Below, in pieces: positions 15,018-61,778 of a DNA stretch of 64,000 nucleotides. Source of the DNA: Flavobacterium sp. ZT3R18 (lineage in GTDB: Bacteria > Bacteroidota > Bacteroidia > Flavobacteriales > Flavobacteriaceae). Location of the stretch: NCBI RefSeq assembly GCF_007097385.1, contig NZ_VJZS01000003.1:124001-188000 (forward strand), written 5' to 3'. The translations under genes were made by a program, and so were the position numbers. Every line of letters begins with the position of its first letter. The stretch's first letter is position 1. The notes under the pieces were generated by a model, which was given only the letters and a program-made list of their open reading frames with translations, searched no databases and was not told the DNA's origin.

Positions 15018-15320
15018 ATGGGAGGATTAAGACAGCGTTGGGGATTAACATCCAATTTTCAACTTACACTAATTATTATTGTTTTTGCAATAACAGGATC
15101 TGCATCAGCTTGGTTGTCAAAACCATTCTGTGTGTGGTTGGGGATAACTAAAGAAGATTTAGGCTTTTGGTTTACCCCTATCCGATTGCTACTTATTTTC
15201 CCGATCTATCAAGTTTTATTAGTAGCGATAGGGTTCCTCTTCGGACAATTTAAATTCTTTTGGGCTTTCGAGAAAAAAATGCTTAAAAGTATGGGCTTGG
15301 GATTTTTATTTAAAAAGTGA
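15018..15320 (+). CDS. Small two-helix membrane protein (DUF6787-like)
   Basis: This 100-residue protein has two hydrophobic segments (about residues 15-37 and 55-76), a conserved-looking N-terminal RQRWGLTSNFQL and a basic C terminus with FWAFEKKMLKSMG. It resembles the small DUF6787 family, which is sometimes misnamed diacylglyceryl transferase in databases; this is a recollection, not a search result. No catalytic residues are evident. It stands alone, and TTTTCAGTTTTCAG repeats follow its stop. Confidence 0.7.
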   Translation: MGGLRQRWGLTSNFQLTLIIIVFAITGSASAWLSKPFCVWLGITKEDLGFWFTPIRLLLIFPIYQVLLVAIGFLFGQFKFFWAFEKKMLKSMGLGFLFKK

Positions 15321-15401
15321 TAAAAAGTTTTCAGTTTTCAGCTTTTTAAACCTCCTTTCTACTAAAAACAACTATTCTCAGACTATCTGATTTTCTATTT
15401 T

Positions 15402-15800
15402 CTATTTTCTATTTTCTATTTTCATTTTGCCATTGAAATTGTTATTGCTATTGTTATTGTTATTGCTATTGTTATTGCTATTGCTATTGAATTTCCCATT
15501 GTCAGTTCTCTTTACCCAATACGTGTACATCCACGTTAGCGTAAAAGAAGGTATGACATCTGTAAAAGGGATTATTTCTTCAACAAAAGTCAAAATACCT
15601 GCTACCTTCCCTACTCTGCCTTCGTACATTTTGGTCATCAAAAAACCTGCCAATGGTGCCCAAACAACATCAGCAAATTCACCAATATATGGAATCGTAA
15701 ACGACAGCATTCCAATACTATCAAACAACAACCCCAAAAGGAGTTTTTTAGTTTTCAAATTATTATTCAAAACAGCCGTTTTTTGTATATCTTTATTCAT
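15402..15800 (-). CDS. Small membrane protein with an Asn/Ser-rich tail encoded by a microsatellite
   Basis: Starting at MNKDIQKT, the protein has about 132 residues. Two hydrophobic segments lie in the first two-thirds (LLLGLLFDSIGMLSF and the WAPLAGFLMTKM region), and the core is followed by the strand TLTWMYTYWVKR. The last 30 residues are almost only Asn and Ser and are encoded by degenerate CAATNN hexamers (15427-15487). That tail is probably recent and variable in length. A longer start at 15827 exists but adds only nine residues. The family core is of unknown function. Confidence 0.7.
   Translation of the reverse strand: MNKDIQKTAVLNNNLKTKKLLLGLLFDSIGMLSFTIPYIGEFADVVWAPLAGFLMTKMYEGRVGKVAGILTFVEEIIPFTDVIPSFTLTWMYTYWVKRTDNGKFNSNSNNNSNNNNNSNNNFNGKMKIENRK
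15427..15487 (-). repeat. CAATNN hexamer array inside the gene tail
   Basis: About ten degenerate hexamers (AATAAC, AATAGC on the minus strand) are in frame with the gene. TCTATTT-like heptamers follow it at 15390-15421. Related hexamers occur at 22137-22188, 34929-35010 and 52674-52721. Confidence 0.8.
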
Positions 15801-19548: not shown

Positions 19549-20901
19549 ATGAGCACTTTCGAACAATTCAATCTCCCTAAATCAGTCCAAAAAGCAATTG
19601 ACGATTTAGGTTTTACTTCCCCTACTCCTATTCAGGAAAAAACTTTTTCTGTGATAATGTCTGGTCGTGATATGATGGGAATTGCACAAACGGGTACTGG
19701 TAAAACATTTGCCTATTTATTGCCTTTATTAAAATTATATAAATTCACTCCAGGTCATACTCCTAAAATAGTAATCCTAGTTCCAACTCGTGAACTTGTG
19801 GTTCAAGTAGTTGAGGAAGTAGAGAAATTAACCAAATACATGTCGGTTCGTACGGTTGGTATTTTTGGTGGTGTTAATATAAACACCCAAAAAACAACGG
19901 TTTATCAAGGATGTGATATTCTTGTGGGGACTCCTGGAAGAATCATGGATTTAACATTGGATAATGTCATCCGATTTGAAGAAATGCAAAAGTTGGTTAT
20001 CGATGAGTTTGACGAAATGCTGAATTTAGGTTTCCGCACCCAATTGACCGCTATTTTGGCTATGATGCCAAAAAAACGCCAAAACATACTCTTTTCGGCA
20101 ACGATGACCGATGAAGTCGATGCTATTTTGAATGACTATTTTGATTATCCAGAAGAGGTTACCCTATCAGCATCAGGAACTCCTTTAGAAAACATTACAC
20201 AAATTACCTATCAAGCTCCTAATTTCAATACCAAAATCAATCTTTTAAAACACTTATTACAAACCAACGAAGACATGAGTCGTGTACTGGTTTTTGTGAA
20301 TAACAAGAAGATATCCGATATGGTTCACGAACGAATCGAGGAAGATTTTGAAGGTCAGTTTGGGGTTATTCACTCCAATAAATCCCAGAATTACCGTTTG
20401 AGTACTATGGCTTCCTTTCAAGAAGGAAATTTACGCGGTTTGATCACTACCGATATTATGGCGAGAGGTTTGGATATTTCGAATATTACACACGTAATCA
20501 ACTTTGAGATGCCCGAATTACCAGAATTGTACATGCACCGTATTGGTAGAACGGGTCGTGCCGATGCTACTGGAACGGCTATAAGTCTTATTGCTCCTCG
20601 TGAAGAAGAATCAAAAGTGGCTATTGAAGTATTAATGAATACCGAATTAACCGTTGAAGCTTTCCCAGAAGAAGTTGAAGTTTCAGCTAAACTAATCGAA
20701 CCTGAAAAAGACAGACAGCCAATTAAGTTTTTGATGAAAAAACAAAAACTAGACGGTGATGGTGCTTTTCAAGAAAAAAGCAAAAAGAATAAGAAAGTCA
20801 ATTTGGGTGGGCCTGGTGTTACCAAGAAAAAAACACACGGTTCTGTAAATAGAAATATGTTGAAGACCAGAGATAAAAAGAGAAAAGACAAGAATAAGTA
20901 G
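19549..20901 (+). CDS. DEAD-box family RNA helicase with DEFD box
   Basis: This ATP-dependent RNA helicase of 450 residues starts at MSTFEQFNLP. The Q motif is followed by Walker A AQTGTGKT, PTRELVVQV (Ia), VGTPGRIMD (Ib), motif II as DEFD rather than DEAD (VIDEFDEMLNLGF), SAT (III), and the C-terminal domain with RGLDISNITHVINFE and HRIGRTGRAD (VI). A Lys-rich tail without an RGG box probably binds RNA. The DEFD form is seen in some Bacteroidetes homologues. The in-frame upstream extension is rejected because a -7 promoter element lies inside it. Likely roles are cold adaptation or ribosome assembly. Confidence 0.93.
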   Translation: MSTFEQFNLPKSVQKAIDDLGFTSPTPIQEKTFSVIMSGRDMMGIAQTGTGKTFAYLLPLLKLYKFTPGHTPKIVILVPTRELVVQVVEEVEKLTKYMSVRTVGIFGGVNINTQKTTVYQGCDILVGTPGRIMDLTLDNVIRFEEMQKLVIDEFDEMLNLGFRTQLTAILAMMPKKRQNILFSATMTDEVDAILNDYFDYPEEVTLSASGTPLENITQITYQAPNFNTKINLLKHLLQTNEDMSRVLVFVNNKKISDMVHERIEEDFEGQFGVIHSNKSQNYRLSTMASFQEGNLRGLITTDIMARGLDISNITHVINFEMPELPELYMHRIGRTGRADATGTAISLIAPREEESKVAIEVLMNTELTVEAFPEEVEVSAKLIEPEKDRQPIKFLMKKQKLDGDGAFQEKSKKNKKVNLGGPGVTKKKTHGSVNRNMLKTRDKKRKDKNK

Positions 20902-20927
20902 TTTTCAGTTTTCAGTCTTCAGTCTCT

Positions 20928-20970
20928 TAAAAAAACAGCCAATGGTTTAAAAACCATTGGCTGTTTTTTT
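20928..20970. terminator. Bidirectional terminator
   Basis: The perfect stem ACAGCCAATGGTTT/AAACCATTGGCTGT has A- and T-runs on its two sides. It lies between convergent genes and serves both. TTTTCAG-type repeats flank it, each in sense orientation for its own gene. Confidence 0.92.
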
Positions 20971-20998
20971 AAGATAAAATCACACTGCTGAAAACTGA

Positions 20999-22129
20999 TT
21001 ACTTTTTTACATTACTAAACACCAAACAAACAGGAGAACACAAGTCTATCTTTTTTCCAGTATCCGTTAGCGTTCCTTTTCGTTTATGAATCTTAAAAAT
21101 CATAATATCGTTAGTATATTGATGTGCTACCAAAAGAAATTTTCCCGTTGGGTCAATCACAAAATTTCTTGGACCTTTTCCTAAAGTACTTATTTGGCCT
21201 CTTGATTCTAATTTCCCTTTTTTCGAAACTTTAAAAATCGAAATTGTATTGGCGTCTCCTCTATTCGAAGCATATAAAAATTTTCCGTTAGGCGAAATAT
21301 GAATATCCGCTGAGCCAAAAGTTCCTTTAAAATCTTTAGCCAAGATACTCGTTTCATTGATTTGGGTTAACTTTCCGTCTGCATAACTAAAGGTGGTCAA
21401 TGAAGCATCTAATTCTTGCAATAGATAAACGAATTTCCCATTCTTGCTAAACGTTAAATGTCTTGGTCCACTTCCCGCTTTTACCGAAACACTATCTTTT
21501 AATGTTAAAATTTCGGCAGTCGTCCCGACGCTTCGGGATGGATCATAATTGTACACATACACTTTATCATTTCCTAAATCATTACTTAAAACATATTTTT
21601 TATCTGGCGAAAAATAAACCATGTGTGCATGAGCCTTTTCTTGTCTGTCTGCATTTGCTCCTTTACCATAATGCTGTACAACCTGCTTGGCTTCGGTTAT
21701 ACCTCCATCCTGCTTTATCCCAAAAACTGAAATATTACCCCCAGAATAATTGGCAACAATCACATTTTTATCATCATTGATAATATAGCAGGGATCAGCC
21801 CCTTTGGAACTTTCTTTATTGATAAAACTGGGTTTTCCGTTTACTTGATCAAATGCAAAAGAGCTTACGGTACTTTCTCCTCCGTTTTCATTTACAGCAT
21901 AAATAAATTTATTATCCTTAGAAACCGCTACATAGCTAGGATTAACGATACTGTCCGAAGATTTCTTTAATCTCATTTGAGCATTATTGGTGTCAAATTC
22001 ATATACATAAATCCCTTTACTATAGCACGTATTAGTATAGGTACCAACGATAAGATTGAGTAAGTTTTTTTGCGCTTGTGTTGAAGCTACAGTAAAAACT
22101 AAGAGAAGAAAAAGAAAGGTCTGTTTCAT
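20999..22129 (-). CDS. Secreted lactonase-family beta-propeller protein
   Basis: This 376-residue protein belongs to the 6-phosphogluconolactonase-like seven-bladed propeller family (PF10282). It has a signal peptide (residues 1-19, ending STQAQ), the opening strand NLIVGTYTN, and repeated blade motifs such as YIYAVNE-, YVLSNDLGNDKVYVY and FLYASNRGDANTISIF. The signal peptide places it outside the cytoplasm, which argues against a direct role in the pentose phosphate pathway. Its substrate is unknown. It converges on the helicase gene across a shared terminator. Confidence 0.88.
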   Translation of the reverse strand: MKQTFLFLLLVFTVASTQAQKNLLNLIVGTYTNTCYSKGIYVYEFDTNNAQMRLKKSSDSIVNPSYVAVSKDNKFIYAVNENGGESTVSSFAFDQVNGKPSFINKESSKGADPCYIINDDKNVIVANYSGGNISVFGIKQDGGITEAKQVVQHYGKGANADRQEKAHAHMVYFSPDKKYVLSNDLGNDKVYVYNYDPSRSVGTTAEILTLKDSVSVKAGSGPRHLTFSKNGKFVYLLQELDASLTTFSYADGKLTQINETSILAKDFKGTFGSADIHISPNGKFLYASNRGDANTISIFKVSKKGKLESRGQISTLGKGPRNFVIDPTGKFLLVAHQYTNDIMIFKIHKRKGTLTDTGKKIDLCSPVCLVFSNVKK

Positions 22130-22136
22130 ATGTTAT

Positions 22137-22188
22137 TGATATTGATTTTCTATTGTAATTGAAATTGCTATTGCCATTGATATTGTTA
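22137..22188 (-). repeat. CAATNN hexamer repeats
   Basis: Degenerate hexamers (CAATAT, CAATGG, CAATAG, CAATTT on the minus strand) fill the gap between two minus-strand genes. Confidence 0.65.
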
Positions 22189-30206: not shown

Positions 30207-30848
30207 ATGTCTTTAGAATATAAAATAAGAGAACCCAAAGTAATTTTAGACAAAAACCCACTTATACTCATGCTTCACGGCTATGGAAGCAACGAAGCCG
30301 ATTTATTTTCGTTTGCTCCTGAATTACCTGATGAGTATTATGTTATCTCCGCTCGCGCTCCTTATGACTTACAATATGGGAGTTACGCTTGGTATGCGAT
30401 CAATTTTGATGCCGATCAAAACAAATTTTCAGATAACGATCAAGCCCGAATATCCAGAGATACAATTGCTGGCTTTATTGATGAATTAACAAGCAACTAT
30501 CCTATTGATTCTAATGATGTAACGCTTTTTGGTTTCAGCCAAGGATCGATCTTGAGTTATGCTGTAGCACTTTCGTATCCAGAAAAAGTGAATAAAGTAG
30601 CAGCCATGAGTGGTTACCTCAATTTAGAAATCGTAGCCGAAGATTACCTAAAAAACAACTTAAGCAAACTTAAAATATTTGCTTCACACGGAACGGTAGA
30701 TCAAGTAATTCCTGTGGATTGGGCTAGAAAAACACCGGGAATACTAGAGAAATTAGGAGTAGCCATTACCTATAAAGAATACCCTGTGGGTCATGGAGTT
30801 GCTCCACAGAATTTTTATGATTTAAAGAATTGGCTTAGCGGTAAATAG
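30207..30848 (+). CDS. Alpha/beta hydrolase, phospholipase/carboxylesterase type
   Basis: This serine esterase has 213 residues. The oxyanion segment is LMLHGYGSNEADLF (about 22-35). The nucleophile Ser is in GFSQGSIL, the catalytic Asp is in HGTVDQVIPVDW, and the catalytic His is in YPVGHGVAPQN, in the order expected for the YpfH/acyl-protein thioesterase-like branch. No signal peptide is present, so it is cytoplasmic. The physiological ester is unknown. A dense repeat array starts directly after its stop codon. Confidence 0.92.
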   Translation: MSLEYKIREPKVILDKNPLILMLHGYGSNEADLFSFAPELPDEYYVISARAPYDLQYGSYAWYAINFDADQNKFSDNDQARISRDTIAGFIDELTSNYPIDSNDVTLFGFSQGSILSYAVALSYPEKVNKVAAMSGYLNLEIVAEDYLKNNLSKLKIFASHGTVDQVIPVDWARKTPGILEKLGVAITYKEYPVGHGVAPQNFYDLKNWLSGK

Positions 30849-30849
30849 T

Positions 30850-31193
30850 CTTCAGTCGCAGTTTTCAGTTTTCAGTCACTACCGAGATGGGAATAAGTTT
30901 TCCAGTCGCAGTCTCAGTTTTAAGTTACTACCGAGATGGGAATAAGTTTTCCAGTCGTAGTCTCAGTTTTCAGTCACTACCGAGATGGGAAATAGTTTTC
31001 AGTCGCAGTTTTCAGTTACTACCGAGACTGAAAACTAAAAGCTTTTTTATACGATTTCTACAAACTGAAAACTGCGACTGAAAACTGAAAACTTTTTTAT
31101 ACGATATCTACAGACTGAAAACTGAGACTGAAAACTGAAAACTTTTTTATACGATATCTACAGACTGAAAACTGAGACTGAAAACTGAAAACT
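30850..31193. repeat. Two-sided intergenic repeat array
   Basis: The left part has four units marked by ACCGAGA at 30881, 30930, 30979 and 31021, with CAGTTTTCAG-type stretches between them. The right part has three units of about 50 bases marked by CTTTTTTATACGAT at 31042, 31092 and 31142, with ACTGAAAACTG stretches. The two halves are roughly inverted to each other, and each is in sense orientation for the gene it follows. Confidence 0.85.
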
Positions 31194-31194
31194 C

Positions 31195-31695
31195 CTATTT
31201 CTGATATAGAAAAGACTGATTTACTTCAAAAGAAACACTTTCATCTTCGTTGATAAAATATTTCAGCAGCACTTCTCCCCAATATTCTCCGTCGCTATAA
31301 TCAGCAATTATCCAACGGTGGTTCAAGACTTTTACTTTATTGATCAAAAATTTATTGGCTCCCAATTGTTCTTGCCCAGTATAAGGATTTCCTTTTGGAT
31401 TCGAATTTAAATCCAATAGTTGTGCCGTAACATACGGAATTAAGGTAGCATAATTTCGAATTTTATCCGACTTAGCCGATTCAAAATAATTTTGGGCGTT
31501 TTCATTTTTTTCTAATGAAAAATAATTCGCATCAGACAATTTATTGCTAACGGATTGCAAACTGTCTTTTAATCTGGTTGTTGTTTTTTTATATTTTTCT
31601 TGCTCAAAAGTCACCTCTTTGCTTAAAAACATATAGGTATAAACATTAAAGACTAAAGACAAAATTAAAGCGTAAAGGAGTAATGAATTTTTCAT
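31195..31695 (-). CDS. Membrane-anchored protein of unknown function
   Basis: This 166-residue protein has one N-terminal hydrophobic segment (residues 4-23) that anchors it to the inner membrane, a short coiled region (about 28-60), and a globular C-terminal domain with HRWIIADYSDGEYWGEVLLKY, which looks like a small beta-rich fold. No enzyme motif is evident, and I do not assign a family. Its leader is copy B of the structured inverted repeat shared with ychF and serC. Its 3' end runs into the two-sided repeat array. Confidence 0.75.
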   Translation of the reverse strand: MKNSLLLYALILSLVFNVYTYMFLSKEVTFEQEKYKKTTTRLKDSLQSVSNKLSDANYFSLEKNENAQNYFESAKSDKIRNYATLIPYVTAQLLDLNSNPKGNPYTGQEQLGANKFLINKVKVLNHRWIIADYSDGEYWGEVLLKYFINEDESVSFEVNQSFLYQK

Positions 31696-34151: not shown

Positions 34152-34194
34152 TAAAAATCCAAGAAAGACAAATTGTTTTTCTTGGATTTTTTTT
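34152..34194 (+). terminator. Terminator
   Basis: The stem AAAATCCAAGAAA/TTTCTTGGATTTT with a T-run follows the 487-residue protein gene. Confidence 0.88.
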
Positions 34195-34212: not shown

Positions 34213-34352
34213 ATTGTCATTCCGAGGAACGAGGAATCTCCACAAGTAGCTCGACAATCCCAATATAATCAGCTCTTTTACTCATAACATAACGGCAAAG
34301 ACAATATTGTCGAGTTACTTGCGAAGATCCTTCCTTCGTCAGGATGACAATA
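34213..34352. repeat. Imperfect long inverted repeat
   Basis: The arms at 34213-34258 and 34306-34352 each begin or end with ATTGTCAT-like and CTCGACAAT-like sequence (TCATTCCGAGGAACGAGGAA, versus TTCCTTCGTCAGGATGA). They lie between convergent genes. Similar GAGGAATCTC-type sequences are common in Bacteroidetes intergenic DNA. Confidence 0.65.
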
Positions 34353-34381
34353 TTGAGGAATCGGTACTGATCACTGAACAC

Positions 34382-34834
34382 TTATTTCAATATCTGATCA
34401 GCGTGGGCTTTGGTCTTAACTTCTGAAATCACTTCGTCTATAACTCCATTTTCGTCAATTACAAATGTCGTTCTATGAATTCCATCGTATTCTCTTCCCA
34501 TAAACTTTTTGGGTCCCCAAACTCCAAAGGCATTGATAACCGATTTATCCTCATCAGCTAGTAATGGGAATTGAAATTCGTATTTATCTTTAAACTTGGC
34601 TTGTGCTTTTGCACTATCGGCACTTACCCCTAAAATTGCGTAATTATTGGCTTGAAAACGTTCGAAATTATCTCTTAAATCACATGCTTCTGCCGTACAA
34701 CCTGGAGTCGAAGCTTTTGGATAAAAGAAAACCACTAATTTTTTTCCTGTATAATCTGCCAATTGATGCAATTTCCCATCTTGATCTAAGCACGAAAAAC
34801 TAGGTGCTTGATCTCCTTTTTTTAATGTGGTCAT
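34382..34834 (-). CDS. bcp: Thioredoxin-dependent thiol peroxidase (BCP/PrxQ)
   Basis: This peroxiredoxin of 150 residues reduces hydroperoxides. The peroxidatic Cys is C46 and the resolving Cys is C51 in STPGCTAEACDLRDNF, which is the BCP pattern with a five-residue separation. It begins with KKGDQAPSFS and has the FYPKASTPG loop. It would act in the cytoplasm with thioredoxin. AATCTAAA-like repeats precede the start codon, and CAGTGATCAG-type sequence follows the stop. Confidence 0.95.
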   Translation of the reverse strand: MTTLKKGDQAPSFSCLDQDGKLHQLADYTGKKLVVFFYPKASTPGCTAEACDLRDNFERFQANNYAILGVSADSAKAQAKFKDKYEFQFPLLADEDKSVINAFGVWGPKKFMGREYDGIHRTTFVIDENGVIDEVISEVKTKAHADQILK

Positions 34835-34841
34835 AATTTAT

Positions 34842-35026
34842 TTTAGATTTTAGATTACAAATTTAGATTTTAGAAAATAGAAAATAGAGTATCGAGTAAA
34901 GATTTTAGGATTAAAAATTCACCATTCTCATTGTAATTGAAATTGAAATTGAAATTGACATTGAAATTGCTATTGTAATTGAATTTTGACATTGCAATTG
35001 CCATTGAAATAGTTTTTCTTTACATC
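34842..35026. repeat. TAGATTT heptamers and ATTGNN hexamers between divergent genes
   Basis: TTTTAGATTT-type units at 34842-34890 are followed by ATTGTAATTGAAATTGAA-type hexamers at 34929-35010. They fill the gap between bcp and nth. Confidence 0.75.
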
Positions 35027-49887: not shown

Positions 49888-51006
49888 ATGATTACCATAC
49901 AAGAAGCCAAGACAAAAAACGAGCTAATCGAATTTATAAAATTTCCTTTTTCCTTATACAAAGACAATCCGTATTGGGTGCCGCCAATTATTGCCGATGA
50001 ATTGGAAACGTTTGACAAAACCAAAAATCCCGCTTTTGAAAGTGCCGAAGCAAACTTTTATGTCGCTTATAGAAACGATACAATTGTAGGTCGAATTGCG
50101 ACAATCATCAACTGGGACGAAGTCAATCACCAACAAAAAAGAAAAGTTCGTTTTGGTTGGTTTGATGTTATTGATGATCTAGAAGTAACCAAAACATTGC
50201 TTGAAAAAGTATATGAATTGGGAAAAAAAAACAATCTTGAATATGTAGAAGGCCCAATGGGATTCTCCAATCTGGACAAAGTAGGAGTTCTTACCGAAGG
50301 CTTTGACGAATTAGGAACTATGATTACATGGTACAATCATCCTTATTATGCCACCCATTTTGAACAATTAGGCTACGTAACCGAGAAAGAATACCTAGAA
50401 AACAAATTCCCATTTGCCAATGCCAAACCTGAGTTTTTCGAAAAAATAAATGAGTTAGTCAAAAAAAGATACCAACTCAAACCCATCAATTTTAAATCGA
50501 CCAAAGCCGTGATGCCTTACGTCGATAAGATGTTTGATTTATTTAATGAATCGTATGCGAACTTATCTTCGTTTGTAGCCATTTCAGACGTTCAAAAAGA
50601 ATACTTCAAGAAAAAATACATCAGTTTCATTAATCCAGAATACATCAAATATGTAGAAGACAAGGATGGAAATCTAGTGGCTTTTGCTATTGTGATGCCT
50701 AGTTTTTCGAAAGCATTACAAAAAGCCAACGGTAAATTATTCCCTTTTGGTTTCCTGCATTTACTAAATGCAAGACGCAACAGTAAAGATGTTGTTTTCT
50801 ACCTTATTGGCGTACATCCAGAATATCAAAACAAAGGAGTAACAGCCGTAATTTTTAGTGAATATCACAAAACATTTACCGAAAAAGGAATTGAAAACTG
50901 TTTCAGAACCCCTGAATTATCAGACAATATAGCGATCCAGTTAATTTGGAAAAATTTCAATCCTGTAGTGCATTGCAGAAGAAAAACGTTTAGAAAAGAG
51001 TTGTAG
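49888..51006 (+). CDS. GNAT-like N-acetyltransferase family protein
   Basis: This 372-residue protein has an N-terminal GNAT-like region with FPFSLYKDNPYWVPPI and the AYRNDTIVGRIATIIN strand. The second GNAT-like half carries LIGVHPEYQNKGVTAVIFSEY, where the P-loop-like PEYQNKGV resembles the acetyl-CoA binding motif A (R/Q-x-x-G-x-G/A). The substrate is unknown; similar proteins are sometimes labelled GTP cyclohydrolase, which the sequence does not support. Sense-oriented TTTTCAGTCGCAG sequence follows its stop. Confidence 0.83.
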   Translation: MITIQEAKTKNELIEFIKFPFSLYKDNPYWVPPIIADELETFDKTKNPAFESAEANFYVAYRNDTIVGRIATIINWDEVNHQQKRKVRFGWFDVIDDLEVTKTLLEKVYELGKKNNLEYVEGPMGFSNLDKVGVLTEGFDELGTMITWYNHPYYATHFEQLGYVTEKEYLENKFPFANAKPEFFEKINELVKKRYQLKPINFKSTKAVMPYVDKMFDLFNESYANLSSFVAISDVQKEYFKKKYISFINPEYIKYVEDKDGNLVAFAIVMPSFSKALQKANGKLFPFGFLHLLNARRNSKDVVFYLIGVHPEYQNKGVTAVIFSEYHKTFTEKGIENCFRTPELSDNIAIQLIWKNFNPVVHCRRKTFRKEL

Positions 51007-51037
51007 TTTTCAGTCGCAGTCGCGGGTTGTCAAAAAT

Positions 51038-51074
51038 AAAAAAATCCATTCACAAAGCGAATGGATTTTTTTAA
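51038..51074. terminator. Bidirectional terminator
   Basis: The stem AAAAATCCATTC/GAATGGATTTTT is flanked by A- and T-runs between convergent genes. Confidence 0.9.
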
Positions 51075-51119
51075 ATGCAATCTTAAGTACTGAAAACTGA
51101 GACTGAGACTGAAAACTAT

Positions 51120-52382
51120 CTAAGCGTCCAAATCAACTTTAGTTCTGCTAGCGATTTCTTTATACGTTCCGTTTTCTAATCTTTCACGAATGTCTTCAAA
51201 TGCTGTAAGTGTTTCATCAATATCAGATAAAGTATGCGAAGCAGTTGGTATCAATCGCAATAAAATCATCCCTTTTGGAATAACTGGGTAGATTACAATC
51301 GACAAGAAAATACCGTAATTCTCTCTCAAATCATTCACCATCACCATAGCTTCTGGTACACTTCCTTCAAGATAAACCGGAGTCACACAAGTATTAGTAT
51401 CCCCAATATTGAAATTTCTAGTTCTCAAACCACTTTGCAATGCATTAACATTTACCCAAAGTTTGTCTTTCAATTCAGATGAGTTTCTTAGCAATTCCAA
51501 ACGCTTCAAAGAACCAATGGTTTGAATCATAGGCAACGATTTAGCAAACATTTGAGAACGCAAATTGTATTTTAAGTAATCAATAATGTCTTTATCGGCA
51601 GCAACAAAAGCACCAATGTTAGCCATTGATTTTGCAAACGTAGAGAAATAAACATCAATTCCGTCTTGACAATCTTGCTCCTCACCTGCTCCAGCACCTG
51701 TTTTACCAAGTGTACCAAAACCATGTGCGTCATCAACAAGTAAACGGAAATTGTATTTCTTTTTCATTTCTACAATCTCTTTCAACTTCCCTTGTTGTCC
51801 GCGCATTCCAAAAACACCTTCAGTGATAAACAAAATACCACCACCAGTTGTTTCGGCTAGTTTTGTAGCACGCTCCAGGTTTTTCTCCATGCTTTCGATA
51901 TCGTTATGACGGTATGTAAAACGTTTTCCGCTATGCAAACGAACCCCGTCAATAATACAGGCATGTGCATCAACATCATACACAATCACATCATTTCTAG
52001 TAACCAAAGCATCAATGATAGACACCATTCCTTGGTAACCAAAATTCAACAAATAAGCTGATTCTTTCATTACAAAAGCTGCCAATTCTTCTTCTAGTTG
52101 CTCATGATATTTCGTGTGACCACTCATCATTCTTGCTCCCATTGGGGCAGCAGCACCAAACTCGATAGCCGCATCAGCATCCGCTTTACGTACTTCAGGA
52201 TGATTTGCAAGACCTAAATAGTCATTTAAACTCCAGTTCAAAATATCTTTACCTTGAAATTTCATTCTTGGCCCTAATTCTCCTTCTAATTTTGGAAATA
52301 CAAAATAACCTTCTGCTTGTGAAGCCCATTTTCCTAGTGGACCTTTATTGTTTTGAATTCTTTCGAATAAATCTTTTACCAT
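51120..52382 (-). CDS. PLP-dependent acyltransferase, serine palmitoyltransferase-like
   Basis: This alpha-oxoamine synthase-type enzyme of 420 residues condenses an acyl-CoA with an amino acid. The motif LLVDDAHGFGTLGKTGAG carries the PLP-ring Asp and His. The PLP-binding Lys lies in STFAKSMANIGAF. LNWSLNDYLGLANHPEVRKA is the usual N-terminal segment. In Bacteroidetes this family member is commonly the serine palmitoyltransferase of sphingolipid synthesis; 8-amino-7-oxononanoate synthase or KBL remain alternatives. It is monocistronic with its own -7 element at 52420-52427. Confidence 0.9.
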   Translation of the reverse strand: MVKDLFERIQNNKGPLGKWASQAEGYFVFPKLEGELGPRMKFQGKDILNWSLNDYLGLANHPEVRKADADAAIEFGAAAPMGARMMSGHTKYHEQLEEELAAFVMKESAYLLNFGYQGMVSIIDALVTRNDVIVYDVDAHACIIDGVRLHSGKRFTYRHNDIESMEKNLERATKLAETTGGGILFITEGVFGMRGQQGKLKEIVEMKKKYNFRLLVDDAHGFGTLGKTGAGAGEEQDCQDGIDVYFSTFAKSMANIGAFVAADKDIIDYLKYNLRSQMFAKSLPMIQTIGSLKRLELLRNSSELKDKLWVNVNALQSGLRTRNFNIGDTNTCVTPVYLEGSVPEAMVMVNDLRENYGIFLSIVIYPVIPKGMILLRLIPTASHTLSDIDETLTAFEDIRERLENGTYKEIASRTKVDLDA

Positions 52383-52663: not shown

Positions 52664-52671
52664 TATATTTG
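52664..52671 (+). promoter_or_regulatory. Putative -7 element TATATTTG
   Basis: This TAnnTTTG match lies about 120 bases before the NYN gene. The transcript leader would then contain the CAATNN and CTAAAATC repeats at 52674-52781. Confidence 0.45.
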
Positions 52672-52673
52672 AA

Positions 52674-52781
52674 TCAGAATCAGAATCAATGGCAATGGCA
52701 ATATCAATTTCAATATGAAAATCTAAATTCTAAAAATTGACAATCAAAATAATCTAAAATCAAAAGTCTAAAATCAAAAAT
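52674..52781 (+). repeat. Leader repeats: CAATNN hexamers, then CTAAAATC units
   Basis: GAATCA units (three), CAATGG/CAATAT/CAATTT hexamers and CTAAAATC-like heptamers follow one another up to the NYN start codon. Confidence 0.75.
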
Positions 52782-52790
52782 AATTTAGGT

Positions 52791-57398: not shown

Positions 57399-57622
57399 AT
57401 TGGAATGATGGCGGGACGGATTTTGTTATGGAAAGAAAAATGTTCTGCTCCTAAAAACCATTATTTTCTGATCAAAATTTCTTCTTTAAAAACCCTTCTT
57501 AGACCTCAAAATCCAAAATCAAAATTCTAAATTCTAAAATCTGAAATCTAAAATTCTGATTATCAAATACTAATAAAACATTAAATCTTAAAATAGCATT
57601 AGTTTATATGAATTATAAACAG

Positions 57623-57651: not shown

Positions 57652-59589
57652 ATGAATAAATTTGAACAATTAGGATTGAGTGAATCGTTACTGAAGGCGA
57701 TTTTAGATCTAGGATTTGAGAATCCGACCGAAGTACAGGAGAAAGCGATTCCCCTATTATTGGAAAAAGACACAGATTTAGTTGCGTTGGCTCAGACAGG
57801 GACAGGGAAAACGGCAGCTTTTGGTTTTCCAGTTATTCAGAAAATTGATGCCGACAACAGAAATACACAAGCATTGATTTTATCTCCAACACGTGAATTG
57901 TGTTTGCAGATTACCAACGAAATTAAAAACTACTCTAAATACGAAAAAGGTATTAATGTGGTAGCAGTTTACGGTGGGGCTAGCATTACAGAACAAGCGA
58001 GAGACATTAAGAGAGGCGCACAAATTATTGTGGCGACTCCAGGAAGAATGCAAGATATGATAAACAGAGGATTGGTAAACATTTCTCAAATTAACTATTG
58101 TATCCTTGACGAAGCAGACGAAATGTTGAACATGGGTTTCTACGAAGATATCGTAAACATCCTTTCTACTACGCCTGATGAAAAAAGCACATGGTTGTTT
58201 TCTGCAACTATGCCTGCTGAAGTAGCACGAATTGGAAAACAATTCATGAAAGATCCAATTGAAATTACAGTTGGAGCTAAAAATTCAGGTTCTGCAACGG
58301 TTTCTCACGAATTTTACCTAGTAAATGCACGTGATCGTTACGAAGCTTTGAAACGTTTGGCAGATGCTAACCCTGATATTTTCTCAGTAGTTTTCTGTAG
58401 AACAAAACGTGATACACAAGCTGTTGCCGAAAAATTGATCGAAGACGGATACAGCGCTGCTGCTTTGCACGGAGATTTATCTCAAGCGCAACGTGATGGT
58501 GTTATGAAATCTTTTAGAGGAAGACAAATCCAAATGCTTGTAGCTACTGACGTTGCTGCGCGTGGAATTGACGTTGATAATATTACTCACGTAGTAAACT
58601 ACCAACTTCCTGACGAAATCGAAACGTACAACCACCGTTCTGGTCGTACTGGTCGTGCTGGTAAATTAGGAACTTCTATCGTAATTGTTACTAAAAGTGA
58701 ATTGCGCAAGATTTCTTCTATCGAAAGAATCATCAAACAAAAATTCGAAGAAAAAACGATCCCTTCCGGAATTGAAATCTGCGAAATCCAATTGTTGCAC
58801 TTAGCCAATAAAATTAAGGATACTGAAGTTGATCACGAAATTGACAACTATCTTCCAGCTATCAACAATGTACTTGAAGGTTTATCGAAAGAAGAATTGA
58901 TCAAGAAAATGGTATCAGTAGAATTTAACCGTTTTATTGCTTACTACAAAAAGAACAGAGACATTACGAATCAGTCTTCAAATTCTGAAAGACGTGATCG
59001 TGATGATAGAGATGGTGCTCCAAGAGAAAACAACAATAGCGGTGCTACAAGATATTTTGTAAACATTGGTTCTAGAGACAATTTCGACTGGATGTCATTA
59101 AAAGATTACTTGAAAGAGACATTAGACTTAGGTCGTGATGACGTTTTCAAAGTAGATGTAAAAGAAGGTTTCTCTTTCTTTAACACAGATCCAGAACACA
59201 CGGATAAAGTTATGGAAGTATTGAACAACGTACAATTAGAAGGACGTCGTATCAATGTTGAAATCTCTAAAAACGACGGTGGTGGAAGAAGAGATCACAA
59301 CGGAAGAGATTCTAGAGGTGGTGGAAGCGGATTTGGTGGTGGAAGAAGTTCTGCTCCAAGAAGAGAAGGAAGTTTTGCTCCTAGAAGAGAAGGATCTGGC
59401 GGATTTGGTGGCGGAAGAAGTTCTGCTCCTAGAGAAGGTGGTTTTGGACCAAGAAGCTCATCAGCTCCAAGAACAGGTGGTTTTTCATCTGACAGAGCAC
59501 CAAGAGAAGAAGGTTCATCTGATAGAGCTCCAAGACGTTCTGAAAGCTTTGGTGATGCGCCAAGACCTAGAAGACCAAGAAGAGACTAA
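57652..59589 (+). CDS. DEAD-box RNA helicase with DbpA-type RNA-binding domain and RGG-like tail
   Basis: This ATP-dependent RNA helicase has 645 residues from MNKFEQLGLS. The Q motif, Walker A AQTGTGKT, PTRELCLQI, ATPGRMQD, motif II DEADEMLNMGF, SAT and HRSGRTGRAG are all present. A DbpA-type RNA-binding domain follows (about 460-545: RYFVNIGSRDNFDWMSLKDY). The final 110 residues are Gly/Arg/Ser-rich, with repeated GGGRSSAPR units, an RGG-like tail for RNA binding. The shorter start is chosen because the longer frame overlaps the -7 element. It probably helps ribosome assembly or cold growth. Confidence 0.95.
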   Translation: MNKFEQLGLSESLLKAILDLGFENPTEVQEKAIPLLLEKDTDLVALAQTGTGKTAAFGFPVIQKIDADNRNTQALILSPTRELCLQITNEIKNYSKYEKGINVVAVYGGASITEQARDIKRGAQIIVATPGRMQDMINRGLVNISQINYCILDEADEMLNMGFYEDIVNILSTTPDEKSTWLFSATMPAEVARIGKQFMKDPIEITVGAKNSGSATVSHEFYLVNARDRYEALKRLADANPDIFSVVFCRTKRDTQAVAEKLIEDGYSAAALHGDLSQAQRDGVMKSFRGRQIQMLVATDVAARGIDVDNITHVVNYQLPDEIETYNHRSGRTGRAGKLGTSIVIVTKSELRKISSIERIIKQKFEEKTIPSGIEICEIQLLHLANKIKDTEVDHEIDNYLPAINNVLEGLSKEELIKKMVSVEFNRFIAYYKKNRDITNQSSNSERRDRDDRDGAPRENNNSGATRYFVNIGSRDNFDWMSLKDYLKETLDLGRDDVFKVDVKEGFSFFNTDPEHTDKVMEVLNNVQLEGRRINVEISKNDGGGRRDHNGRDSRGGGSGFGGGRSSAPRREGSFAPRREGSGGFGGGRSSAPREGGFGPRSSSAPRTGGFSSDRAPREEGSSDRAPRRSESFGDAPRPRRPRRD

Positions 59590-59680: not shown

Positions 59681-59830
59681 TTTAATGCCGATTATGTACA
59701 CAATATACAGTCCAATAACGATTGGACAATTAAAAGTACGACTGGTATAGAATGAGGCTTATTTTATAGTCAACATCATTTTACTACTCTACATTCTGTA
59801 ACCTGCTTGATGTTTCTGTTTTTCTGTTTT

Positions 59831-59869
59831 CTGCCCTCTGCAATCTGCCCTCTGCAATCTGCCCTCTGG
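59831..59869. repeat. 14-base tandem repeat (CCTCTGCAATCTGC)
   Basis: The unit CCTCTGCAATCTGC occurs two and a half times. It lies in the gap before the 59967-60734 gene, which holds no other gene; a GTCCAAT/ATTGGAC hairpin lies at 59712-59729. Confidence 0.75.
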
Positions 59870-59966: not shown

Positions 59967-60734
59967 ATGAAATATTTTGTAGTTTTTTTATTTTTAATAG
60001 CCTCCATAAGTACAGTTGCCCAAACCACTGATACTCCCGTAAAAGTTTCTGGTACCATCATCAGCGACAACACTGGCACCCCGCTAGCCAATGCAAATAT
60101 CATCAACATCAATCAAGTTACCGGTACTACTACTGATGACAAAGGTAATTTTGAGATTGCAGTTACTCAAAGTGACACCTTGCACATTACCCTTCTTGGT
60201 TATCAATCCTTACGAGTTAGAGTAACCAATGACTGGGTGAAAAACAAAAAAACAACCATTCAATTGACCCAAAAAGCAATCGCTTTAGAGGAAGTGGTCA
60301 TAAGCCCATACTATCTTACCGGTTATCTAGAAATTGACTCCAAATTAATCCCCATAAAAGAAGATTACCGTTATAGTATTTCTGGATTAAATCAAGCTTA
60401 TGAAGGTGGACAATACGCCCCTGAAGCTTTTGGAAAAGTGCTCGGGTCCATATTCAATCCTGCCGATATGCTCTATAATGTCTTCGGGAAGAAACCCCAA
60501 CAGCTCAAAAAACTCAAAGAGATGCGAAAAGACGACACCGTGAGAAACCTTCTAGAAACCAAATTTGACAGAGAAACCATTTCATTACTATTAGGTGTTA
60601 CTAAAGACGAGATTGCCGAAATATTAACCAGATGTAGCTACTCCGAAGCTTTTATCAAAACCGCTAATGACCTTCAAATCATGGACGCTATAAGTGGTTG
60701 TTATGAACAGTATAAGGTCTTGAAGAAAAAGTAA
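59967..60734 (+). CDS. Secreted protein with carboxypeptidase-like regulatory domain
   Basis: This 255-residue protein begins with a signal peptide (residues 1-19, ending TVAQ). A carboxypeptidase-like regulatory beta-sandwich follows (about 24-105: VKVSGTIISDNTGTPLANAN, then TTTDDKGNFEIAV). The remaining 150 residues are mostly helical with EEVVISPYYLTGYLEID and a region with many Lys. It may be a periplasmic adaptor or TonB-related accessory, with no enzyme motif. Sense-oriented CAGTCGCAGTTTTCAG repeats follow the stop. Confidence 0.82.
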   Translation: MKYFVVFLFLIASISTVAQTTDTPVKVSGTIISDNTGTPLANANIININQVTGTTTDDKGNFEIAVTQSDTLHITLLGYQSLRVRVTNDWVKNKKTTIQLTQKAIALEEVVISPYYLTGYLEIDSKLIPIKEDYRYSISGLNQAYEGGQYAPEAFGKVLGSIFNPADMLYNVFGKKPQQLKKLKEMRKDDTVRNLLETKFDRETISLLLGVTKDEIAEILTRCSYSEAFIKTANDLQIMDAISGCYEQYKVLKKK

Positions 60735-60835
60735 AGCTAGTTTGCAGTCTATTCAGTCGCAGTTTTCAGTATAGAACGAGTAAAAAAGTTTTCAGTCGCA
60801 GTTTTCAGATTGCAGTATTCAATAACAAGTCTAGT
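60735..60835 (+). repeat. 3' CAGTCGCAGTTTTCAG repeats
   Basis: Two TTCAGTCGCAGTTTTCAG-type stretches follow the stop in sense orientation. The gap 60735-61118 also contains the hairpin element at 60861-60914 and matching motifs for the minus-strand gene. Confidence 0.8.
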
Positions 60836-60860: not shown

Positions 60861-60914
60861 CATAAAGAGAAGGGGCCAACTCATCGCACTGGTGAGTCGG
60901 CCCCTTCTCTTTAT
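60861..60914. repeat. Long hairpin element (GGGGCC/GGCCCC)
   Basis: The 16-bp perfect arms ATAAAGAGAAGGGGCC and GGCCCCTTCTCTTTAT are followed inward by ACTCA/TGAGT. It is flanked by AGGCGTGCCACC upstream and GTCGGGCTTCC downstream, a layout common in Bacteroidetes intergenic repeats. Confidence 0.85.
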
Positions 60915-60943: not shown

Positions 60944-61118
60944 TGGGCTACTTCGGTAGCTTCCGTCTATCCCTCACGTAGCATTTCCGTAATCTAAGAA
61001 CCTTAGTGTAAAACTAGAAAATAAAGTTTAACTTGAATTCTCCAATCTGAATACTGATGCTAAATTCACCAATCTGGAAACTGTGACTGAATACTGTGAC
61101 TGATCACTCAAAAACTGA

Positions 61119-61778
61119 TCACTGAACACTACTATAATACCGCTCCTCTATCCTCTTAATATCCTTAATCGACTTCTTAGCCCAATCCAGTCGTTTCTCC
61201 AAAATTTCTTCTTCAGACAATTTCCAATTGATATCAGAATTACGCAATCGATTCGTTAGGTTTTGAATAATAATAGCCGCCGAAACCGAGATATTCAAAC
61301 TTTCCGTAAAACCCACCATCGGAATTTTAAGAAAACCATCGGCTCTCTGAAGAATTTCTTCTGATAATCCGTCTCTTTCGGTGCCAAAAAACAATGCACT
61401 TGGTTTCGAGATATCAAAATCCTCCAGCAAACAATCATTCTCATGTGGCGTGGTGGCGATGATTTGATATCCTTTGTCTTTCAGCGTATCAATACAATTG
61501 GTAACACTGTCAAAAGTCGAAATATCAACCCATTTTTGAGCACCCATCGCGATTTCTTTGTCGATACTTTTACCATAACGTTCCTCGATTACATTCAGCT
61601 CCTGAATTCCAAAAACCTCACAACTGCGCATTACCGCAGAGGCATTATGCATTTGAAAAATATCTTCTACCGCTATCGTAAAATGTTTGGTTCTGGTATT
61701 CAAAACTTTCAAAAATTTCTCTTTCCGATTATCGGTTAAAATATTTTCTAGAAAAGTGAGGTAATCTATATCAATCAT
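61119..61778 (-). CDS. SPOUT-family RNA methyltransferase (TrmH/SpoU-like)
   Basis: This SAM-dependent RNA 2'-O-methyltransferase has 219 residues. The three SPOUT motifs are present in order: NASAVMRSCEVFGI (motif 1 with the catalytic-site Arg), SALFFGTERDGLSEEIL (motif 2) and IPMVGFTESLNISVSAAI (motif 3, the knot). TrmH acts on tRNA Gm18, and the size and motif set fit it, but other SpoU members cannot be excluded. It is monocistronic and lies in an intergenic zone rich in repeats. Confidence 0.93.
   Translation of the reverse strand: MIDIDYLTFLENILTDNRKEKFLKVLNTRTKHFTIAVEDIFQMHNASAVMRSCEVFGIQELNVIEERYGKSIDKEIAMGAQKWVDISTFDSVTNCIDTLKDKGYQIIATTPHENDCLLEDFDISKPSALFFGTERDGLSEEILQRADGFLKIPMVGFTESLNISVSAAIIIQNLTNRLRNSDINWKLSEEEILEKRLDWAKKSIKDIKRIEERYYSSVQ

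Follow-up and report, generated by a model that had tools for sequence, protein, structure and literature searches.

Tandem CAGT arrays at the edges of Flavobacterium gene gaps point away from coding regions and often stand in inverted pairs

A short motif of the TTTTCAG(TC)CAG type recurs behind stop codons in Flavobacterium sp. ZT3R18, and its occurrence at 20902-20927 raises the question of what it is part of and what gives it a direction. The sequence analysed (the window) is a 64,000-nucleotide stretch of contig NZ_VJZS01000003.1, AT-rich (33% G+C), from a genome of 4.96 Mb. The initial annotation, made from the letters alone, held that the motif is locked to the sense strand after stop codons, appears once for each gene at convergent junctions, has terminators standing apart from it at some sites and is explained by no known feature. 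When the sequence of each named site was inspected, the motif was present at 10 of 10, on the plus strand at 15321, 20902, 30850, 51007 and from 60738 on, and on the minus strand at 20988-20997, 31193, 34367-34376, 51109-51117 and 61115-61124. It sits at 3' ends and is far commoner than chance would give: 24 motif words were counted in the noncoding DNA of the window, whereas 100 dinucleotide shuffles gave 0.82 on average and 4 at most, and the reversed motif occurs once. Genome-wide, CAGTTTTCAGT is found 120 times in forward and 121 times in reverse orientation, and its reversed control 3 and 2 times. A control made of GACT repeats is unfit, because GACT is found within the array when its other strand is read.

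Units of 7 and 6 nt (CAGTTTT and CAGTCK) are mixed in tandem to make up the motif. In chains of at least three CAG within 864 kb the commonest units are CAGTTTT (59), CAGTCT (34), CAGTCG (32) and CAGTCA (9). Arrays often abut the stop codon directly, and in many of them the first AG belongs to the stop itself (TAG|TTTTCAG): TAG terminates 33 of 61 array-bearing genes versus 228 of 1016 genes overall (Fisher test, 2.6e-8). Often the motif is one arm of an inverted pair, in which an S arm (CAGT on the strand read) is followed by a loop or a terminator and then by an A arm (ACTG). A full element comprises an S arm of about 15-40 nt built of CAGTTTT and CAGTCK units, a middle part and an A arm of complementary units. 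The middle is either a loop, mostly of 4-20 nt, or a longer insert, which can be a repeated core of about 97 bp or an intrinsic terminator. Loops of 72 distinct compact elements measure 0 to 60 nt, most of them 4-20. The core repeat is present in 16 copies, in both orientations; 15 copies have at least one arm, 11 have both and one has none.

The 20902 junction shows this arrangement clearly. Its S arm (20900..20926, plus strand) consists of two AGTTTTC units followed by AGTCTTC and AGTCTC, with the first AG ending the TAG stop codon at 20899-20901. An intrinsic terminator hairpin with a T-run occupies 20935..20970, and the A arm at 20984..20998, which is S on the minus strand, is in sense for the gene at 20999-22129. 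The junction at 51007 is built alike, with an S arm at 51005..51023 (plus; AGTTTTC and two AGTCGC units) after the TAG of the gene at 49888-51006, an intrinsic terminator at 51044..51073 and an A arm at 51090..51117 (S on minus, sense for the gene at 51120-52382). At the third such junction an S arm of two blocks (60738..60808, plus) follows the gene at 59967-60734, a GC-rich hairpin with a T-rich tail lies at 60872..60912, and the A arm at 61047..61124 (S on minus, units CAGTGAT, CAGTCA and CAGTATT) is in sense for the gene at 61119-61778, extends into that gene and contains its TGA stop. Terminators are indeed distinct from the motif, as had been noted, and at these three junctions (20935, 51044, 60872) they are enclosed by the arms.

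Other sites of the window vary this plan. At 30847..31015 (plus) an S arm is amplified as tandem blocks of about 49 bp and faces an A arm amplified as blocks of about 50 bp (31024..31193; minus, sense for the gene at 31195-31695). A comparable amplified S arm was seen in genome G000, contig C33, around 211900-212500 (locus L170). Single arrays also occur. The S array AGTTTTCAGTTTTCAG at 15326..15341 (plus; motif from 15321), after a 100-aa ORF at 15018-15320, has no recognised A partner, and the single S array AGTGTTCAGTGATCAGT at 34367..34381 (minus) stands after the stop of the gene at 34382-34834, with a terminator nearby at about 34156-34188. Between this terminator and the array, 34225-34350 is occupied by a palindromic repeat of the GTCATTCCGAGGAACGAGGAATC type. 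An Rfam scan of the window at gathering scores found no curated family at the arrays; its sole match was a Flavo-1 RNA (RF01705; 57327-57422, 55.3 bits).

The initial annotation had proposed counting the motif by strand and by position relative to stops. We counted it in 1.264 Mb, about a quarter of the genome, with 1016 genes called by our own procedure, which accepts ATG starts only and misses some small genes. Of 138 arrays 123 are noncoding; many arrays that appear as single in one array listing sit inside genes. Within 40 nt after a stop 67 arrays are sense and 5 antisense, so the copy adjoining a stop does read in sense, while the reversed pattern, with 22 noncoding occurrences, is found after stops in 0 sense and 3 antisense positions. 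Within 40 nt before a start the count is 0 sense and 7 antisense. Noncoding arrays fall into co-directional (80), convergent (42) and divergent (1) gaps, which total 138, 32 and 48 kb of DNA, respectively. Among 34 array-bearing co-directional gaps, 14 contain sense arrays only, 17 sense then antisense, 2 are mixed and 1 is antisense-only, its array lying, by eye, within coding sequence. Convergent gaps with arrays are paired in 14 cases and single in 8, and one divergent gap has an array. A second detector, limited to gaps of 30-600 bp, assigned the co-directional gaps of this genome to 12 paired, 11 S-only and 1 A-only cases, an S arm being visible by eye in the last.

For other genomes we used an exact 22-base array word, which retrieved at least 113 stretches from named genomes; a viral collection added 2, giving 115 listed loci. 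Here 57 long arrays (at least 22 nt) in the 40 nt behind a stop are sense and 22 antisense, most of the 22 being, by eye, second arms of short inverted pairs. The sense bias is thus less strict elsewhere than in the window's genome. Within 40 nt before a start 5 long arrays are sense and 33 antisense, and just 1 of 137 lies in a divergent gap. Among the 113 listed named loci co-directional gaps are paired in 54 cases, S-only in 23 and A-only in 7 (in 3 of the 7 a weaker S arm is visible by eye). At convergent junctions 8 are paired and 12 single, with one A-S case, and two cases are divergent.

These counts preserve one part of the proposed lock and change another. The direction at stops is real, but it is set by the edges of the gap and not by stops or sense as such: half of the array-bearing co-directional gaps (17 of 34) hold an antisense second arm, and before starts arrays of the CAGT family are antisense rather than sense by 7:0 in this genome and 46:7 in others. 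A single rule covers most cases: read 5' to 3', the CAGT strand leads away from whichever coding region is nearest. As this strand points away from genes, a gap has CAGT at its left and ACTG at its right, and the same rule explains why each gene of a convergent junction has its own copy of the motif. Adjacent arrays within 60 nt are S-A in 73, A-S in 2, S-S in 25 and A-A in 25 cases at the 115 listed loci, and in 11, 0, 20 and 12 cases, respectively, in the window's genome. Over all data, CAGT pairs within 150 nt are S-A 85 times and A-S once.

An excess of sense copies at stops could suggest an element acting as single-stranded RNA. The S array would then be an unpaired part of the sense 3' UTR, its fixed CAG triplets with a flexible spacing of 6-7 nt being recognised by Rho or a multi-site RNA-binding protein, and convergent pairs would be two 3' UTRs placed back to back. 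This would agree with the 67:5 ratio, with 14 sense-only co-directional regions and no true antisense-only one in the window's genome (11 and 1 with the second detector, the latter having its S arm) and with the 23 sense-only versus 7 antisense-only regions elsewhere. It would also fit the separate position of the arms at 51007, one on each side of a terminator. We nevertheless regard it as unlikely. S-A pairs, whose second arm is antisense, are the commonest arrangement in co-directional gaps (17 of 34 here, 54 of 84 elsewhere), the bias after stops in other genomes is no more than 57:22, the polarity holds at 5' ends too, and units differ among species at one and the same junction, so that a binding protein would have to change along with them. 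An RbpB-type RNA-binding protein was considered and dropped: in the part of PMC11697453 that we could consult, the motif is a 41-nt sRNA sequence, and no link to the arrays was found there.

Base composition was also considered as a source of direction. In array-free gaps the first 20 nt after stops contain A at 0.39 and T at 0.35, and arrays of all kinds pooled after stops divide into 41 with T over A and 41 with A over T. There being no general T-richness and no bias among the arrays, composition fails to explain the direction there. At starts it may help. The first 20 nt upstream, read outward, contain T 0.48, A 0.31, G 0.14 and C 0.08; the outward strand being T-rich, an A-rich arm beside the start fits the background. 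This is in line with what the consulted part of PMC6847099 states for F. johnsoniae, which does without Shine-Dalgarno sequences and in which A at -3 has a role.

The inverted pairing suggests a folded structure. In 61 compact elements the mean z-score of predicted folding is -6.3, and 98% of them lie below -2, so that they conform to the REP/BIME description of an imperfect palindrome able to form a hairpin. Intrinsic terminators, defined by a GC-rich hairpin with a T-run, are not what the compact elements resemble, since at least six T among the eight nucleotides right of the A arm (the side measured) were present in 7 of 71. The complementarity of the two arms of an element does not exceed that of permuted arms (p 0.76, n=31), nor did it in repeat tests (p 0.97, n=72; p 0.61, n=11). 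As arms match no better within an element than across elements, pairing is not visibly maintained, a point against a hairpin role, and arms that are not mutually adjusted are also what the single-stranded reading would expect. Local copying that keeps the arms complementary was rejected on the same result, matched arms scoring like permuted ones.

REP/BIME sequences are described as short, high-copy palindromic intergenic repeats tagged GTAG or CGTC (PMC3733652, PMC8266576), favouring co-directional or convergent gaps, with a hypothesised role in termination or message stability (PMC3733652). As far as the accessible parts of these sources go, the present element is similar in being a short, high-copy palindromic intergenic repeat with the gap preference given above. 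It differs from the listed REP/BIME sequences, judging by sequence, in having arms made of 6-7 nt tandem units, variable in number and order, and in lacking a constant GTAG foot: among 176 arms counted at a distance of over 6 nt from coding DNA, GTAGT occurs at the outermost unit in just 2, and about 19% of 58 stop-overlapping arms have G two bases ahead of the outermost AGT. Nor are the arrays neighbours of a transposase in the two cases examined, no link to a REP transposase having been found within 250 nt of 2 of the genome's 4 Y1_Tnp genes. The passages of PMC12306157 available to us include two Flavobacterium genomes in the RepRanger survey table and give nothing on unit grammar or order. 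The element was not recognised in any description within the open-licence literature searched, as far as its text was accessible; a term search of PMC2267715 returned nothing in the part covered.

From the anatomy, abundance, placement, order, predicted folding and distribution observed in the searched samples, we tentatively read the motif as one arm of a REP-like intergenic repeat of Flavobacteriaceae, dispersed, able to form hairpins and composed of short tandem units, that would act as a stem-loop at RNA 3' ends; we hold this with somewhat less than even confidence. Elements occupy the gaps behind stops, at convergent junctions and between same-strand genes. By analogy with REP/BIME, the transcribed element may form a stem-loop behind the upstream gene and protect or mark the 3' end of its message. 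Mostly it would not serve as an intrinsic terminator, and where a terminator lies in the loop the arms might add an outer stem around it. The order S then A may arise in co-directional gaps, where the second arm, standing ahead of a start, would have to present the A-rich, G-poor strand usual at that place here; copying of elements together with loss of arms could carry that order into convergent gaps and one-armed copies. Should such hairpins determine where messages end or how stable they are, promoters and terminators alone would not suffice to read operon expression in these species.

The statement that nothing explains the lock is softened accordingly, as inverted pairing accounts for much of it, but most copies with a single arm follow it as well. 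Such S arrays are common, with 14 co-directional regions in the window's genome and 23 at the listed loci, and speak against the hairpin reading, though some show a degenerate A-like partner by eye. These arrays and a polarity common to several unit families are the main facts that the hairpin reading leaves unsettled, and for this reason the sense-RNA and directional mutational readings remain under consideration.

The arrays might also be neutral tandem repeats that grow by slippage, are homogenised by recombination within the genome and survive wherever promoters and coding sequence are unharmed. The 218 kb of intergenic DNA contains 214 arrays of period 5-9 versus 17 in shuffled sequence, with period 7 the commonest (98 of 214); abundance is patchy among species, divergent gaps are depleted, and arms abut the stop as though coding sequence were their sole limit. 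All this would suit a neutral origin, which we still think improbable, as it predicts no direction (67:5 at stops, 73:2 in order, several families alike), draws no support from composition after stops and sits poorly with elements between ruvC and hemW that are about as conserved as coding flanks in close relatives. Heptanucleotide and other long simple sequence repeats are known from prokaryotes (Mrazek et al. 2007, via PMC4679880). To the extent that the consulted text describes them, the CAGT arrays are similar in their tandem units of about 7 nt and patchy occurrence across genomes, and differ in being degenerate, of mixed 7/6 nt period and arranged in inverted pairs of fixed order, and in the single polarity shared here by several unit families. 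The same source reports TAACTGA direct repeats from Beggiatoaceae, Cyanobacteria and five Bacteroidetes, likewise heptamers beside genes with a strong orientation bias; in the part seen, they have another sequence and lie mostly just upstream of starts, and they are direct with one indirect repeat, inverted pairs not being the rule (PMC4679880).

Several unit families beyond CAGT share the polarity, their S strand also reading away from the coding region. Sums over eight data sets, covering all fetched DNA and arrays no more than 80 nt from a coding edge (arrays inside genes and more distant ones are omitted), give the following sense:antisense ratios at 3' ends: CAGT 165:20, CTAAG 12:2, CAAAG 22:6, GATTTT 9:2, CACGAA 23:4, AGTG 10:0 and GCAGA 13:4. 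At 5' ends the corresponding ratios are 8:57, 1:18, 2:15, 2:23, 1:11, 0:2 and 0:1. Two families are thin, AAACTT (2:6 at 3' and 7:3 at 5' ends) and GAAG (3:0 and 0:1). Within 150 nt, S-A versus A-S order is 6:0 for CTAAG, 15:1 for CAAAG, 9:0 for CACGAA, 4:0 for GATTTT, 2:0 for AGTG and 6:2 for GCAGA; the GAAG and AAGTTT families form no mixed pairs within this distance. Counts for families other than CAGT are not independent, because the families were picked after the 20902 orthologues and a repeat scan had been seen. The two largest families of the tandem-repeat scan concur with the shared polarity: AGTTTTC is sense in 16 cases at 3' ends and its complement AAAACTG in 4 at 5' ends, and AAAATCT is sense in 14 cases at 5' and 3 at 3' ends, its complement in 5 at 3' and 2 at 5' ends. 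The idea that the polarity stems from stop codons in all frames was rejected, the unit sequences making this argument inconsistent among families.

This polarity could point to a directional process that lays arrays of short units at coding edges with one strand pointing outward, the two arms of a gap being independent. Such a process, which might be the templated extension of 3' ends where intergenic DNA breaks, would span units as different as CAGTTTT, CTAAGNTT, CAAAGGTT, AGATTTT and CACGAATT and act at either gene end. We give it little credence. If true, it would be a new kind of element or mechanism and not a copied palindrome, and a mutational rule would mean that DNA repeats can grow directionally in a way so far unrecognised.

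The 20902 junction itself shows how units change. A comparison of 20 loci, with both flanks present in 16 and units read by eye, found that the window's species has CAGTTTT, that G006, G008 and G015 have CTAAGNTT, that G004 has CAAAGGTT and that the unit of G031 is a GAAG heptad; in some species the terminator stands alone, and one has neither. At 51007, a terminator similar to that at 51044 stands without arms in five relatives (G002, G010, G021, G026 and G035, by eye), so the arms look like two additions flanking an older terminator rather than a single insertion. The element has turned over at both window junctions for which orthologues were available (20902 and 51007), and this turnover, like the apparent two additions, weighs against the hairpin reading.

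The gap between ruvC and hemW was followed in the genus sample rather than at the loci chosen by the 22-base word. Elements are present there in some species and absent in others. Of 101 genomes 93 were tabulated, the omitted ones being G037 (gap of about 67 bp), G016 (genes on different contigs) and genomes without a match to one of the genes. Gaps measure up to 2 bp in 18 genomes, 3-21 bp in none, 22-35 bp in 2, 41-130 bp in 51 and more in 22; in the window's own genome the gap is 81 bp and has two CAGTTTTCAGT matches. Among the matches listed there are at least 11 to the element, three full-length and eight partial (30-70 bases, 76-100% identity, some in opposite orientation), the partial ones counting against the hairpin reading. 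The full-length elements are identical at 96, 95 and 92%, compared with 88/92, 88/87 and 89/93% for the ruvC/hemW flanks, so in close species they appear to be conserved about like the coding flanks. Orthologous elements of named species are likewise close in sequence, although arm conservation at these loci is biased upward, as they were chosen by the exact 22-base word.

Gaps that are either nearly closed or 41-130 bp long, with few between, are what a non-autonomous mobile element of the foldback type might leave, with ends of inverted sub-repeats and a variable loop, moved by a putative enzyme. Foldback (FB) elements of Drosophila have inverted ends of short tandem sub-repeats with variable arm length and loop; they are eukaryotic and longer, and the CAGT elements resemble them in their sub-repeat inverted ends. 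Variation of both unit number and loop and the core family of about 97 bp, carried in both orientations and nearly always with at least one arm, would also accord with such an origin. It is nonetheless quite unlikely in our view. No sharp outer boundary of the arms was found and TA is not constant at the ends, the base preceding the outermost AGT being T in 0.31 of 3' edges (n=70) and 0.46 of 5' edges (n=78); no array lies within 250 nt of the two Y1 transposase genes covered, out of four in the genome, and at 51007 an older terminator seems to lie between the arms. Mariner-type insertion at TA targets, prompted by the TAGT...ACTA ends, was rejected for want of a sharp boundary.

A 15-base array word was found in 18 of 296 genomes of a phylum sample, comprising 15 of 18 in the genus, 3 of 12 in other members of the family and none of the 266 from elsewhere in the phylum. 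Some Flavobacterium species carry the array in dozens of gaps, and an 11-base word is frequent in some species of the genus and rare in others. A large, environmentally common genus seems to edge many of its gene gaps with arrays under one strand rule. The 80 listed matches to the 22-base word are mostly from Flavobacterium, others being in Olleya, Aequorivita, Winogradskyella, Gelidibacter, Marixanthotalea and, once, in Sunxiuqinia, which we take to be outside the family of the window. Typical Flavobacterium elements were seen in metagenome-assembled genomes labelled Limnohabitans and Bifidobacterium (L217, L258), probably misbinned contigs, and the array word is present on two viral contigs (L302, L303). 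In G016 the reversed control word TGACTTTTGAC has 65 copies and CAGTTTTCAGT just 3, perhaps reflecting another unit family.

Further arrays were noticed in the window. AAAATCT/TAAAATC heptads in A-type orientation lie just upstream of start codons at 52671-52784 and 57496-57568; taken together with its complement, AAAATCT forms the second large family in the tandem-repeat scan of the genome. Hexad arrays of ATTGAA, ATTGCA or CAATTT are located near gene starts (15427-15501, 22134-22185 and 34930-35010), and a 14-nt array of TCTGCCCTCTGCAA occupies 59830-59868, about 240 nt past the stop of the gene at 57652-59589.
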